Shown here piece by piece: positions 2,999 through 21,324 of a stretch of DNA of 36,809 bases. The stretch comes from Alkalibacterium sp. (lineage in GTDB: Bacteria > Bacillota > Bacilli > Lactobacillales > Carnobacteriaceae_A). Under the pieces are notes generated by a model that saw only the letters and a list, made by a program, of their open reading frames with translations, ran no database searches and was not told the origin of the DNA. Numbering within the stretch: the first letter of the stretch is position 1; the number at the start of each line of letters is the position of its first letter. The stretch spans positions 1-36,809 of the forward strand of contig RECC01000032.1 of the NCBI GenBank assembly GCA_007692455.1, in the 5' to 3' direction. A program made the translations under genes and the position numbers.

Positions 2999-3092
2999 GA
3001 TTAAAGTATACGGTTAGGATTTGAATTTAATATGAACTTTTTTAGAAAAAACATTGAATTTATTTGAATGGATGAATACTTATGAGGGCGAC

Positions 3093-3125: not shown

Positions 3126-3273
3126 GGGGATAAGACAAAGCGTCTTAATGTCATTTGAGAGTAGACCATTCAATTCGGGGAGAATGAATAACGGCCTCAA
3201 ATAGTTTATCTTTTCAAAGAATAATCAGATTTTTCGGGGGATCCATCTGATATTCTTTTTGGGGAGAAAAGAA
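3093..3273 (-). ncRNA. Candidate small RNA 2, with four C-rich motifs
   Basis: About 180 nt, leftward, no ORF. In order it shows hairpin A (ATTCTTTT/AAAAGAAT, 3252-3274, loop CTCCCCA), hairpin B (ATCAGAT/ATCTGAT, 3224-3251, loop with CCCCC), and hairpin C (ATTTGAG/CTCAAAT, 3153-3202, inner stem closing on TCCCC). Then come a small AAGAC/GTCTT hairpin (3132-3146), single-stranded ATCCCCAACC and a strong terminator. Four UCCCC motifs, three in apical loops, recall the UCCC-bearing sRNAs of staphylococci and Listeria that bind ribosome binding sites. A TTGATA-N17-TAAAGT promoter precedes it. Alternative: a structured 3' UTR of the pfpI gene upstream. Confidence 0.55.
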
Positions 3274-10345: not shown

Positions 10346-10357
10346 AAAGAAGGAAAA

Positions 10358-10452
10358 TAAGAGTAAGAGAAAAACGTTAAGTGCTGGATGGATGGGATGT
10401 TGCCTCCAGACGAAAAAACGGTGGTTTTGCGATTTTTCTCTGCATCCGCTTT
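10358..10452 (+). promoter_or_regulatory. Tetrahydrofolate (THF-I) riboswitch aptamer
   Basis: The order GAGTA, CGTTAAGTG, GATGGGATGTTGCC, CGAAAAAACGGTG, TGCATCCGC reproduces the conserved blocks of the class I THF riboswitch: junction GAGUA, CGUUAAGUG, GGGAUGU, CGGUG, and the 3' GCAUCCGCU that forms P1 and the pseudoknot. Folding supports GGATG (10386-10390) with the CATCC at 10443-10447. It precedes a folate ECF transporter, the classic location. Confidence 0.92.
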
Positions 10453-10478
10453 AAAACTTAGCTGTTTTTTAGCGAGGA

Positions 10479-10570: not shown

Positions 10571-11530
10571 ATGACTTCAACACCGTATACTGACAGTCGT
10601 CAGAACAGATTTTTGCACTATATTATTGTGGGTGTGCTGGCTCCCGTTTTTCTGTCCTTTGTAATCCCATACTTACGGACACGGACTGGAACGAACGGCA
10701 TGGCTTACTTTTTAGGACAGTACGACAGCTGGCAGATTATCCTGGCTGATAGTCTGTTTTTATTCCTGTTTACAGGAGTCCTGTTTTCTCTGGGTGCTTT
10801 TGTCCTGAAAAAATTGAGAGAAGAAAGCATCCTGATCAGCCTGCTTTTAGGCCTGCTGATTACCGGCGCTTCCTATATTCTTTTTTTACAGAATGAAGTG
10901 CTTCAAGTGCAAGCGATTTACGAAGGGAACGGCGTGATTTACGCAATCTCCTTTCTGATGTATGCCTGGCTTTTGATCTACCGGACTGTCAGACTTTCAG
11001 AGTGGCAGCTCGGCAACCACACTAGAGGGATTGCCATCGTTGGCTTGCTGGTTGCAATGAACATTACACTTGGCCGAATTGGCATTACTACCCCGGTGGT
11101 GCGGATTACCTTTGCGTTCCTACCAACCGCTCTGATAGGGCTTCTGTTTGGACCTTGGGTAGCGGGTGTAGCTGCAGTTTTAGCAGACTTACTTGGCTTT
11201 ATTGTGGGCGGTGGAGTCGGCGGCTTCTTTCCCGGTTTCACACTGTCTGCTTTTCTGACCGGACTTATTTATGGGGTGTTTCTTCATAAGCGCAAGGTCT
11301 CAACGAAGCGTGTCATCATGGCCGAGGTTGTTATTGCTGTGTTTGTTAACCTGACCTTAAACACATTATGGCTCAGAATATTAACCCAGAATCCTATTGC
11401 GGTTCTTCTTCCGCCAAGACTGATTCAGAATGCTGTCATGATAGTCGTTCGTGTGTTTACTGTAAGGTTCATTGCCAATAACAAGCAGTTAAGAAGAGTG
11501 TATATGAAATATTCAACAGCCAGACACTAA
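10571..11530 (+). CDS. folT: FolT-like folate ECF S component with an N-terminal membrane extension
   Basis: Residues ~150-315 resemble the folate-specific substrate-binding subunit of energy-coupling factor transporters: a helix with A-M-N-I-T-L-G-R, then several helices rich in Gly and Ala (L-L-F-G-P-W-V-A-G-V). The protein is 319 residues, nearly twice the usual ~170-180. The first ~145 residues add about four hydrophobic helices (roughly 14-36, 52-78, 86-106, 118-138) of unknown role. The extension is translated, since the start ATG at 10571 has AAAGGAG 10 bp upstream and the sequence is continuous. The riboswitch supports folate as substrate. The shared ECF module is not in this window. 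Confidence 0.85.
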   Translation: MTSTPYTDSRQNRFLHYIIVGVLAPVFLSFVIPYLRTRTGTNGMAYFLGQYDSWQIILADSLFLFLFTGVLFSLGAFVLKKLREESILISLLLGLLITGASYILFLQNEVLQVQAIYEGNGVIYAISFLMYAWLLIYRTVRLSEWQLGNHTRGIAIVGLLVAMNITLGRIGITTPVVRITFAFLPTALIGLLFGPWVAGVAAVLADLLGFIVGGGVGGFFPGFTLSAFLTGLIYGVFLHKRKVSTKRVIMAEVVIAVFVNLTLNTLWLRILTQNPIAVLLPPRLIQNAVMIVVRVFTVRFIANNKQLRRVYMKYSTARH

Positions 11531-13561: not shown

Positions 13562-13960
13562 ATTTAAGGAAGCTTCGATTGGTATTCGGCATAGTGAAAG
13601 CTGAAATTTTTTTGAGTCCGCCGAAGAAGCGAGCTGTTCGGCAAAGTGAAGACGGATGAACGACTGAGTCTACCAAAGAAGAAGTGGGTTAGGTAAAGTG
13701 AAACAGAAGTTGAGGTTGAGTTTGCCGAACACGTGACGAGTTCAGCCGACTGAATCAGAAACAGCGAGTGAGTTTACCCAAGTGAGCTAAAGTTCAGCAG
13801 ACTCAGTATGAAACGGGTGCTGACTTTACCTAAAGATAGGCGACTTTGGCATACTCGTACGAAAAATATGGCTGGGTATACCCAACTAACAGTCTCTTCA
13901 GCACACTCACGCAGTCAACCACTCTGAGTGTGTCAAACTAGGCACATACGACATAAAAAA
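13562..13960. repeat. Array A: eight degenerate 52-bp units, each with a 35-bp inverted repeat
   Basis: Units start at 13562, 13614, 13666, 13718, 13770, 13822, 13874 and 13926, a constant 52-bp period without indels although sequences have diverged. The consensus is about GAGTYTRCCRAA at positions 1-12 and GTTCRGCAAAGTGAA at 23-37; the first and last units are the most decayed. Positions 1-35 form an imperfect inverted repeat (unit 1 GCCGAA/TTCGGC, unit 2 TACC/GGTA, unit 4 GAGT/ACTC). No ORF or promoter is evident. It fills the gap between the uvrX promoter and the ohr terminator. Not CRISPR: the units vary throughout and linkers are only 17 bp. Confidence 0.75.
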
Positions 13961-18368: not shown

Positions 18369-18956
18369 GTGGAATTAAATCAGTTTAGAGGACAGGCGAA
18401 AAATGAGCTGGCTATGGTCGATGTGGCTCACGCGATACTTGAAACAACAGGGCAAGTTATGGAGTTCAATGATCTGCTGGCGGAAGTAGCTGATTATCTT
18501 GAGCTGGAAGATGACGTATTGGAACAGGAAATGATTCAGTTCTATACCGACTTGAATGTGAACGGCCGATTCATTTCTCTTGGAGATAACCGCTGGGGAC
18601 TGCGTGCCTGGTACCCGATTGACTCTATTGATGAAGAAATAACGCATGATAACGACGAAGAGGACGAAAGACCCCGTCGTAAAAAGCATAAAGGCTTTGA
18701 TGCTTATGAAGATGAAGAAGCTGACGAAGAAGAACTTGAAGAAGAGGAAGAAGAAGTTGTCACATATGGTGACCGTGTAGAAGTGGATGAGCACGGTGTT
18801 ATGGTAGATGATGATGATGAAGAAGATTTGGGCGAGTATAAAGCCGATCTGGAAGATTTAGGCGATGAAGAAGAGGACAGCGAAGAGCTGAAAGGCCTGA
18901 ATATTGTGGACGACGAAGAAGTGCTCGATGACGATGAAGAAGAGGAAGAAGAATAA
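18369..18956 (+). CDS. rpoE: RNA polymerase delta subunit
   Basis: Delta factor, which raises RNAP recycling and promoter selectivity in Firmicutes; 195 residues. The N-terminal HARE-HTH domain covers about 1-85 (Q-F-Y-T-D-L-N-V-N-G-R-F-I-S-L...W-G-L-R-A-W-Y-P), then a Lys/Arg patch (R-R-K-K-H-K-G) and an Asp/Glu-rich disordered tail. The start is GTG at 18369, 10 bp after AAGGA. An ATG five bases after the same SD opens a four-codon frame (ATG TCG TGG AAT TAA) that overlaps the GTG. A strong terminator follows. Confidence 0.95.
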   Translation: MELNQFRGQAKNELAMVDVAHAILETTGQVMEFNDLLAEVADYLELEDDVLEQEMIQFYTDLNVNGRFISLGDNRWGLRAWYPIDSIDEEITHDNDEEDERPRRKKHKGFDAYEDEEADEEELEEEEEEVVTYGDRVEVDEHGVMVDDDDEEDLGEYKADLEDLGDEEEDSEELKGLNIVDDEEVLDDDEEEEEE

Positions 18957-18977: not shown

Positions 18978-19008
18978 AAAGAAGCGTCCACGGGCGCTTC
19001 TTTTTTTA
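18978..19008 (+). terminator. Terminator of rpoE
   Basis: AAAGAAGCG/CGCTTCTTT hairpin with an 8-nt loop running into TTTTTTT. A further hairpin CACACACGA/TCGTGTGTG without a U-run lies at about 19037-19060. Confidence 0.85.
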
Positions 19009-19180
19009 TAGATAAAAACAAAGCCATAAAGCGGTCCACACACGACTAAAATCGTGTGTGTTCCCACTTGAAGAACTTTTGGGATGGAATAATTTGAAGA
19101 AAAGAGGCAGGAGCAGCAACACCTAAGTCGTTTATCAAGATTTTACACGTATTAGCCCAACTGGCCGTAATGTAATGAAT

Positions 19181-19494
19181 GAGTTGTATGAAATAATGGA
19201 CTATTAGTACGGGTGGCTGTATTTGTTGAGATGAGTTGTATTTAGAAAGGGCTTCAGGGTACAGCTCACCAGAATGAAATGTCATCAGTTGTATTCAGAC
19301 GGGCGCTCAGCATGCAACTGATCAATTTTGGAAATAGCGAGTTGTATCCAGTAAGTTATTCTAGATACAACTCAACTTTATTTTTTGAAAGAGCCGTATC
19401 TAATGTCTCCCATATTATACAACTGACTATAAAATGTTAAACGAGTTTTACCTAATACGATAAAGATTTCTTCTTTATCAGGTAAAGGATTTAA
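19181..19494. repeat. Array B: six degenerate 52-53-bp units, each with an inverted repeat
   Basis: Units start at 19181, 19233, 19286, 19339, 19391 and 19443 (spacings 52, 53, 53, 52, 52). Each opens with GAGTTGTAT or a variant (unit 3 CAGTTGTAT, unit 5 GAGCCGTAT, unit 6 GAGTTTTACCT). In units 1-5 the inverted arm ends exactly 35 bp after the start: unit 4 is a perfect GAGTTGTATC/GATACAACTC, and unit 3 keeps pairing by changing both ends (CAGTTG/CAACTG). Unit 6 forms a longer hairpin (TTTACCT/AGGTAAA around GATAAAGA/TCTTTATC, 19447-19486). No ORF. It fills the rpoE-pyrG gap; 19061-19180 shows no further recognisable element. The architecture is the same as array A. Confidence 0.75.
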
Positions 19495-19573: not shown

Positions 19574-19630
19574 ACCCTACGTCGATTTTTATCAGACGAG
19601 AGGGTCAGGAACAGAGTGAATTAACAATAC

Positions 19631-19672
19631 GCTCCCTATTCTATTGATTTAGAATAGGGAGTTTTCTGTTTT
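19631..19672 (+). terminator. pyrG leader attenuator
   Basis: Perfect 12-bp stem CTCCCTATTCTA/TAGAATAGGGAG, 6-nt loop, then TTTTCTGTTTT. Its 5' arm begins GCTCCC, complementary to a poly-G 5' extension. In the established B. subtilis mechanism, low CTP gives poly-G transcripts that pair with this arm, prevent termination and let pyrG be expressed. Confidence 0.88.
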
Positions 19673-19716: not shown

Positions 19717-21324
19717 ATGACAAAGTATATATTTGTAACAGGTGGAGTCGTATCATCAATCGGAAAAGGGATTGCTGCCGCTTCGCTTGGACGCCTGCTG
19801 AAAAACAGAGGACTGAAAGTGACTATCCAGAAATTTGACCCGTATATTAACGTGGACCCGGGAACGATGAGTCCGTATCAGCACGGAGAAGTATTTGTGA
19901 CGGATGATGGGGCAGAGACCGACTTGGACTTAGGGCACTACGAACGATTTATTGACATCAATTTGAATCAGTTTTCTAATGTCACGACCGGGAAAGTCTA
20001 CTCAGAAGTTATTAACAAAGAACGTCGCGGGGACTATTTAGGCGCAACGGTTCAAGTCATTCCACACATTACCGATGAAATTAAAAAGAAAATCAGACGA
20101 GCAGCTCAGACGACTGATTCTGATGTTGTCATTACAGAAGTCGGCGGAACAGTAGGGGACATTGAATCGCTGCCGTTTCTTGAAGCCCTGCGTCAAATGA
20201 AGAGTGACGTGGGTGCGGATAATGTCATGTACCTGCATACGACATTGATTCCTTATCTAAAAGCTGCCGGTGAAATGAAAACCAAGCCGACTCAGCACAG
20301 TGTAAAGGAACTCCGCAGCTTGGGTATTCAGCCGAATGTCTTGATCGTTCGCTCGGAATACCCGGTCGACCAGCATACAAAAGACAAGCTGGCACTCTTT
20401 ACAGATGTGGATTCGAAGGCAGTCATCGAGTCGCTGGACGTTGAAACACTGTATACCATCCCGTTGAATCTACAGAAACAGGGGCTGGATCAAATTGTCG
20501 TGGACCACTTGAAACTTGACGTGCCGGAAGCGGACATGACTGAGTGGAAGGAACTGGAAGAAAAAGTACGCAATCTGAAGAAAACTGTACGTATTGCGAT
20601 TGTCGGCAAGTATGTTGAACTGCCGGATGCTTATTTGTCTGTTGTTGAAGCACTGAAGCACGCCGGCTATGCGGCTGATGCCGATGTGGCAATCAAATGG
20701 GTGAATGCTGAGACGCTTTCTCCGGAAGAAGTAGTTAGTGAACTGAAAGACGTTCAAGGGGTACTGGTACCGGGCGGTTTTGGCGAACGCGGTCTAGAAG
20801 GAAAAATGCTGGCCATAAAATATGCAAGAGAAAACAAAGTACCGTTCTTCGGTATCTGCCTGGGGATGCAGCTTGCTGCTGTTGAGTTTGCGAGAAATGT
20901 GGCCAATCTTGAAGATGCCGGTTCAGCTGAAGTAAACCCGGATGTGACACACAACATTATTGATTTAATGCCGGACCAGAAGAATGTAACGGAAATGGGT
21001 GGAACATTGAGATTGGGGCTATATCCTTGTCAGTTACAGGAAGGAACCGTAACTGCTGCAGCCTATGAGAATCAGGAAGTGGTTCAGGAACGTCATCGTC
21101 ACCGTTATGAGTTCAATAACGAGTACCGCGAGCAGCTGGAAGAAAAAGGTCTCGTCTTCTCAGGCGTCTCACCAGACAACCGCTTAGTTGAAATCATTGA
21201 AGTGAAAGACCACCCGTATTTTGTCGGCTGCCAGTTCCATCCGGAATTCATTTCTCGTCCGAATCGTCCGCAACCTTTGTTTAAAGCCTTTATAGAGAAA
21301 TCACTTGAAAATCAGGAAAGCTAA
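19717..21324 (+). CDS. pyrG: CTP synthase
   Basis: Converts UTP to CTP with ATP and glutamine. Start is the ATG at 19717 with GGAGGG 7 bp upstream; an in-frame GTG at 19702 overlaps the SD and is rejected, leaving 535 residues, the normal length. The N-terminal amidoligase has the P-loop [10 protein letters not shown] (near 9-18) and D-P-G-T-M-S-P. The C-terminal class I glutaminase has G-I-C-L-G-M-Q-L with the Cys nucleophile near residue 380 and a final F-H-P-E. Expression is governed by the attenuator upstream. Confidence 0.99.

Follow-up and report, generated by a model that had tools for sequence, protein, structure and literature searches.

An intergenic array of palindromes between an rpoE-like gene and pyrG in Alkalibacterium sp. 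(array B; NCBI GenBank assembly GCA_007692455.1, contig RECC01000032.1) is probably an array of genomic sites that a cognate NERD-domain protein binds, as judged from sequence comparisons. Computation on the 36,809-nucleotide stretch that was analyzed (hereafter the window), on the rest of its genome (G000), and on related genomes has shown three patterns that support this reading. Three array classes share one geometry and are each associated with a different NERD gene, the half-sites are conserved above the loops and spacers, and half-site similarity tracks NERD protein identity across species.

Array B is made up of twelve half-sites of 13 bp each (like GAGTTGTATCCAG), whose orientation alternates and which form five 35-bp palindromes and one lone half-site at each end (Table 1). 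The palindromes are about 52.5 bp apart, which is near five helical turns. With a geometry-only detector, the rpoE-pyrG intergenic region has a score of 13.0, whereas the highest score among 500 first-order shuffles is 6.7 and none reaches 13. The five unit starts given in a preliminary description of this DNA are exact, with a 35-bp palindrome at each. The inverted arms that it assigned to these units are present as palindromes, but the right arm of the first is eroded to a half-site match of 4/8. A sixth unit that it placed at 19443 is not a 35-bp palindrome; this is a lone half-site located exactly one period out. A companion hairpin element is found near five of the nine class B arrays of the genome (the window, C25, C91, C80, and C94, inverted in C94), and nhmmer found no match to it among the sampled relatives. 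An Rfam search of the window matched nothing apart from a THF riboswitch (RF01831, 72.3 bits), which is distant from array B at 10357-10453 on the (+) strand, upstream of a gene at 10571.

Table 1. Positions of array B, array A, and associated features in the window, with copies of the companion hairpin on other stretches.
Feature	Position	Strand	Remarks
Array B	~19151-19455		Intergenic, between rpoE-like gene and pyrG
Class B palindrome 1	19181..19215	no strand	Right arm eroded
Class B palindrome 2	19233..19267	no strand
Class B palindrome 3	19286..19320	no strand
Class B palindrome 4	19339..19373	no strand	Best preserved, both half-sites 8/8
Class B palindrome 5	19391..19425	no strand
Lone half-site CAGTTGGGCTAAT	19151..19163	(-)	One period upstream of palindrome 1; eroded beyond CAGTTG
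Lone half-site GAGTTTTACCTAA	19443..19455	(+)	One period past palindrome 5
rpoE-like gene (HARE-HTH)	18369..18956	(+)	Upstream neighbor of array B
Terminator-like hairpin	18978-19003		3' of rpoE-like gene
Companion hairpin element	19025..19083	(-)	nhmmer; within shared block
pyrG leader hairpin	19623-19670		Downstream of array B
pyrG (CTP synthase)	19717..21324	(+)	Downstream neighbor of array B
Array A	13614..13908	no strand	Six class A palindromes in steps of 52 bp, half-site like GAGTTTGCCGAAG; each end flanked by a lone half-site one period away
Companion hairpin copies elsewhere	L034 3431-3508; L035 3268-3344; L036 3328-3401; L037 3594-3658

G000 has at least three classes of array that share their geometry and differ in half-site, namely nine arrays of class B, seven of class A, and seven of class C, all with periods of 51-53 bp. 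The class B arrays (window, C25, C91, C80, C94, C53, C13, C49, and C86) have five palindromes each, with start spacings of 52, 53, 53, and 52 bp in eight of the nine and 52, 53, 52, and 52 bp in C25. Four of these copies (C25, C91, C80, and the window) have in common a block of 430-509 bp that includes the companion hairpin. Array A has six relatives (C40, C46, C47, C79, C18, and C67), in which six palindromes, or seven by count in C46, are spaced 51-52 bp apart. It is invisible to the geometry-only detector (score 0; its own shuffles up to 5.0) because its arms match each other at just 7-8 of 12 positions, and a less strict chain score (11.0 at 13614, with five spacings of 52 bp) and its half-site consensus both detect it. 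On C29, class C (GAACTGGTCTCAA) forms five palindromes spaced by about 51 bp, and it has further places on C83, C47, C51, C55, C94, and C46; its half-sites are in register at 51-52 bp steps in all seven places. Lone half-sites lie one period after the last palindrome in all seven class A arrays and one period before the first in six of them, and the class B arrays likewise have terminal lone half-sites with weaker matches. Based on mechanical ORFs, the 15 class A and B arrays with both neighbors known are located between convergent (seven) or tandem (eight) genes and never between divergent genes, which argues against operators. The preliminary description had proposed a class of element, possibly with array-specific recognition; this proposal is strengthened by the three or more classes with one geometry, by further half-sites in species of the same genus, and by the association of the classes with their own NERD genes.

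In G000, one array of each class adjoins a NERD gene, which differs between the classes (C18 for class A, C25:7028 for class B, and C29 for class C). Homologous proteins are encoded beside the class B array of C25, between two arrays of G009 (L136), and beside arrays of G003 and G006. The two proteins tested match PF08378 above the cut-off of 22.1 bits (L034, 59.3 bits, E 6.4e-16; L136, 55 bits, E 1.4e-14). Among 12 genomes of the genus, 85 places match PF08378, and 79 have a reading frame of at least 200 aa; the six with shorter frames were dropped. Based on a profile of the aligned set, 69 of the 79 are array-type NERD genes (at least 232 bits) and 10 are other NERD genes (at most 41 bits). 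A strict array, for which at least three palindromes whose arms resemble one another had to lie within 600 bp of the gene, is present beside 22 of the 69 array-type genes, compared with none of the 10 other NERD genes and two of 258 control genes (p 1.3e-14). All of these controls are mechanical ORFs taken solely from the samples of G009, G003, and G006, and both positives flank one and the same array. The array is downstream of 16 of the 22 genes and upstream of seven, one of these having both. Two further NERD genes of G000 (C25:16460 and C92) have no strict array. The outcome that the preliminary description had named as refuting its reading, namely arrays no commoner than in shuffled sequence, was not obtained. 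A looser count finds arrays beside 27 of 79 NERD genes, six of 258 controls, and none of 237 shuffles. One match in this looser count (L226) consists of three unlike hairpins and is absent from the strict count. The lack of a strict array at 47 of the 69 array-type genes may be true absence or may reflect the detector, which is known to overlook degenerate arrays. At five loci (L136 12881-14225, L181, L195, L201, and L253), arrays flank the NERD gene on both sides, like a composite element. Separately, in the NERD-linked arrays of L181, L201, L217, and L218, successive units switch back and forth between two half-site types, as would be the case with two specificities or a heterodimer.

NERD domains occur in many bacteria, and little is known of their role. 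The partner protein has about 304 aa and consists of a NERD domain (PF08378) with a D..ExK motif, a Cys4 zinc ribbon, and a C-terminal region, which we take to be HTH-like by resemblance and which has no family match. Residues invariant across 22 aligned proteins include G39, G42, E43, D47, Q74, D76, E89, K91, N92, C220, C223, C237, C240, and W274. The partner is thus a NERD-domain protein with a PD-(D/E)XK-like motif and a zinc ribbon, for which nuclease activity is predicted. Among 294 genomes of the order, the protein is found in 60, spread over 21 of 74 genera. A PDB profile search found no solved relative beyond weak zinc-ribbon matches (best E 0.034, zinc-binding stretches only). No NERD relative was confirmed in viral contigs, where 66 stretches matched a pattern, or found on plasmids with one query protein. 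PADLOC and NCBIfam gave just partial matches far below the cut-off, to the NERD parts of PglW, MAD6, and similar proteins, and PHROGs matched only a family of unknown function. Several array-type copies (in G148, G295, G155, G224, and others) contain internal stops, which suggests frequent gene loss. One alternative is that NERD proteins bound to arrays of the same class bridge distant sites in chromosome architecture, with the nuclease fold being a structural or regulatory relic. The helical phasing of the arrays, the seven to nine dispersed members per class, and the absence of arrays between divergent genes are consistent with this role. However, the D..ExK motif is invariant in the aligned proteins, and several classes per genome together with broken copies resemble gene birth and death more than housekeeping, such that an architectural role appears rather unlikely.

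For the binding-array reading, the relationship between the proteins and their half-sites is central. Among 28 NERD genes with half-sites read by eye, near-identical half-sites are found in six of nine pairs at 60% or higher protein identity, four of 36 pairs at 40-60%, and none of 333 pairs below 40%. The nine close pairs are drawn from a small number of orthologue groups and lack independence. Half-site similarity and NERD identity have a correlation of 0.50, which is reached by none of 300 label permutations. Two close pairs (73% and 64% identity) have clearly different half-sites. In G003, an orthologue of the class A NERD protein (68% identity) has class A half-sites, as identified by a class A weight matrix, at positions 3128, 3232, 3283, 3387, and 3439 of L208, with steps of 104, 51, 104, and 52 bp and close to the gene start at 3012. 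The orthologue of G011 (68% identity) likewise has class A half-sites in register beside it, and its locus is nearly identical in sequence to this G003 locus. With the same matrix, no class A arrays were found at orthologues with about 62% identity (G006, G007, and G010). It is the register rather than the number of matches that constitutes the evidence, since a G000 locus (L227) likewise has ten above-threshold class A matches that are scattered and out of register.

Other species of the genus have different half-sites with the same 51-53 bp period, based on samples of 20 stretches from G009, 10 from G003, and 10 from G006, several of which are short. In G009, a half-site GAGTTGCTTAGAG forms three palindromes at 51 bp in four places, and a second half-site GGATACAACTT is present; the half-sites of G003 and G006 are GAACTRGTCTCAA and GAGTTGCCGCGCAA, respectively. 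Some top chains of this sample (e.g., L156 and L134) are single hairpins with chance neighbors or low-complexity DNA. The pairing of a NERD gene with an array is also found in other genera and in another family of the order. Among 19 loci from other genera and families, 12 have at least three palindromes at steps of 51-53.5 bp with a score of at least 9 and up to 12 units, a count made without a shuffled control; the chains in L319 and L322 of this set are convincing in part only. Array-like rows are present in two of 13 family-level loci (L269 and L276). At nine NERD loci from named genomes, including Oceanobacillus limi and Enterococcus columbae, no convincing array was found within the stretch examined. 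A scan of named genomes for the class B palindrome pattern (29 stretches) likewise found no such array among chains scoring at least 7; these consist of recurring Vagococcus allomyrinae hairpins, one pair of terminators, and chance chains in AT-rich DNA. In viral contigs, 29 stretches have a class B-like palindrome, and no such array is present among the chains listed. A BLASTN search of one class B array and its flank against 59 relatives found no match at E 0.001, which is understandable because half-sites differ between species. The V. allomyrinae hairpin (AAGTTGTATAAAA..TTTTATACAACTT) recurs in L056, L062, L063, L076, L077, L082, and L084, mostly near the stretch end, and is probably the end of a multi-copy mobile element unrelated to the arrays.

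The interval between cysK and pspA has an array in two of 10 genomes (G000 and G009), with half-sites of different classes, and none in the other eight. At first sight this resembles in-place replacement of an ancestral array, but independent insertion is equally likely given the eight empty genomes. This presence and absence indicates that arrays come and go between genomes and, together with the shared blocks, suggests array mobility. It is also what may be expected if the arrays were functionless remains of ordinary MITE-like insertions with NERD genes as passengers, as is the block shared by four class B copies. Such remains would not explain the pattern of conservation, in which class A half-sites and spacing are kept where all else has drifted to background, or the tracking of NERD identity by half-sites. 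With the first of the seven C46 palindromes left out, the identity between class A arrays is 69% for half-sites, 29% for loops, and 32% for spacers, and the spacing is nonetheless kept. Between unlike unit positions of class A, the corresponding values are 68%, 26%, and 31%, such that like positions resemble each other no more than unlike ones do. Between class B arrays, the values are 75%, 45%, and 38%. Taken together, an origin of the arrays as functionless insertion remains is distinctly unlikely.

The palindromes may also be read as RNA or cruciform hairpins, such as a multi-hairpin RNA, tandem terminators, or a structured leader, and some units do have perfect or near-perfect stems. Under this explanation, the two arms of a palindrome are expected to covary, and the preliminary description had suggested testing this within each array. 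Class A arms do not covary, with arms agreeing at 0.649 of positions compared with 0.682 when arms were shuffled between palindromes (n = 43). Class B arms do show some matching (0.750 compared with 0.682 when shuffled and 0.726 +/- 0.010 when shuffled within unit position; n = 45). The change at both stem ends of unit 3 in array B, described previously as a compensatory pair, is weak evidence for base pairing, as position 1 of class A is paired at 0.37 compared with 0.54 in shuffled arms. G-T and A-C mismatches are roughly equal on the strand read (26/36 in class B and 43/36 in class A). In addition, lone half-sites one period out, linker lengths that are kept though the linkers diverge, and the lack of an Rfam match in the window save the riboswitch elsewhere all stand against hairpins, which makes this explanation very improbable. 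The class A arms are better described as independently conserved half-sites, i.e., putative DNA recognition sites, rather than a covarying RNA stem. Finally, although array B lies upstream of pyrG, its interpretation as the operator array of a pyrG regulator has hardly any plausibility, given that class B occurs at eight other unrelated sites, that the 15 arrays with known neighbors are never between divergent genes, and that the pyrG leader hairpin is also present in array-less relatives (e.g., L119 and L121).

Among known systems, the REP/BIME/REPIN repeats and their RAYT (TnpA-REP) proteins are the nearest in style. As described in the accessible parts of the sources, these are palindromic repeats that lie between genes, frequently in rows and with alternating orientation; they are paired with a single protein gene, which in many cases has the repeats on its own flanks (PMC8266576, PMC3733652, PMC8049555). 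In contrast to the repeats as presented there, the consensus of 28 NERD-linked arrays lacks the GTAG/CGTC tag. Moreover, the NERD-linked arrays are phased at a fixed 51-53 bp, their partner is a NERD protein, and what is recognized appears to be double-strand half-sites rather than a hairpin, with covariation absent in class A arms and slight in class B. Matches to the Y1 transposase family (PF01797) are absent from the G000 assembly, which is 89.5% complete, and are present in five of the 12 genus genomes. The arrays resemble CRISPR arrays in having regularly spaced palindromic units with differing intervening sequences. However, CRISPR repeats are near-identical with unique spacers of about 30 bp, whereas in class A the half-site identity between units and between arrays is 68-69%, with spacers of 17-18 bp, and the unit number is small and fixed per class. 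In addition, none of the searches made points to a Cas protein as the partner, and the neighbors of array B are the rpoE-like gene and pyrG. As for NERD-domain proteins, the array partner belongs with these by its PF08378 match and its retained D..ExK motif. The accessible part of the SmdA paper states that the role of NERD in bacteria was unstudied before that work (PMC9040797). Literature searches for NERD in connection with palindromes, repeats, or arrays, with most subscription journals beyond reach, found no link described. Judged on these limited searches, the combination of NERD and palindrome arrays is apparently an undescribed kind of protein-and-repeat system.

In the binding-array reading, array B would be partnered with the NERD gene at C25:7028 of G000 (L034, 2040-2966), and array A with the one at C18:330 (L054). 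The zinc ribbon and the C-terminal HTH-like region would read the half-sites, and protein dimers may bind cooperatively, stacked along one face of the DNA. Because the nuclease-type motif is invariant in the aligned proteins, binding may go together with cleavage or processing of DNA by which the arrays are spread, repaired, or homogenized. The whole system would then consist of one gene and an intergenic population of its target sequences, in the style of REPIN/RAYT with an unrelated enzyme. Counted against this reading are the array-type NERD genes without a strict array, the close NERD pairs with different half-sites, the class A orthologues at about 62% identity without class A arrays, and the class B arms that match slightly above chance even within unit position.

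On balance, we lean towards an undescribed and widespread system in at least two bacterial families, in which each genome would have several paralogous NERD nucleases, every one having a separate DNA code and a separate set of helically phased intergenic palindrome arrays. The proteins and sites would diversify together, such that sister species have other codes with the same geometry. A specificity-switching nuclease would, in other words, have arrived independently at the REPIN/RAYT lifestyle. If true, dispersed palindrome populations paired with one protein gene extend beyond the RAYT transposases. One branch of the NERD proteins would also gain a testable DNA target, as well as dozens of natural protein and half-site pairs for residue-by-residue comparison of specificity.
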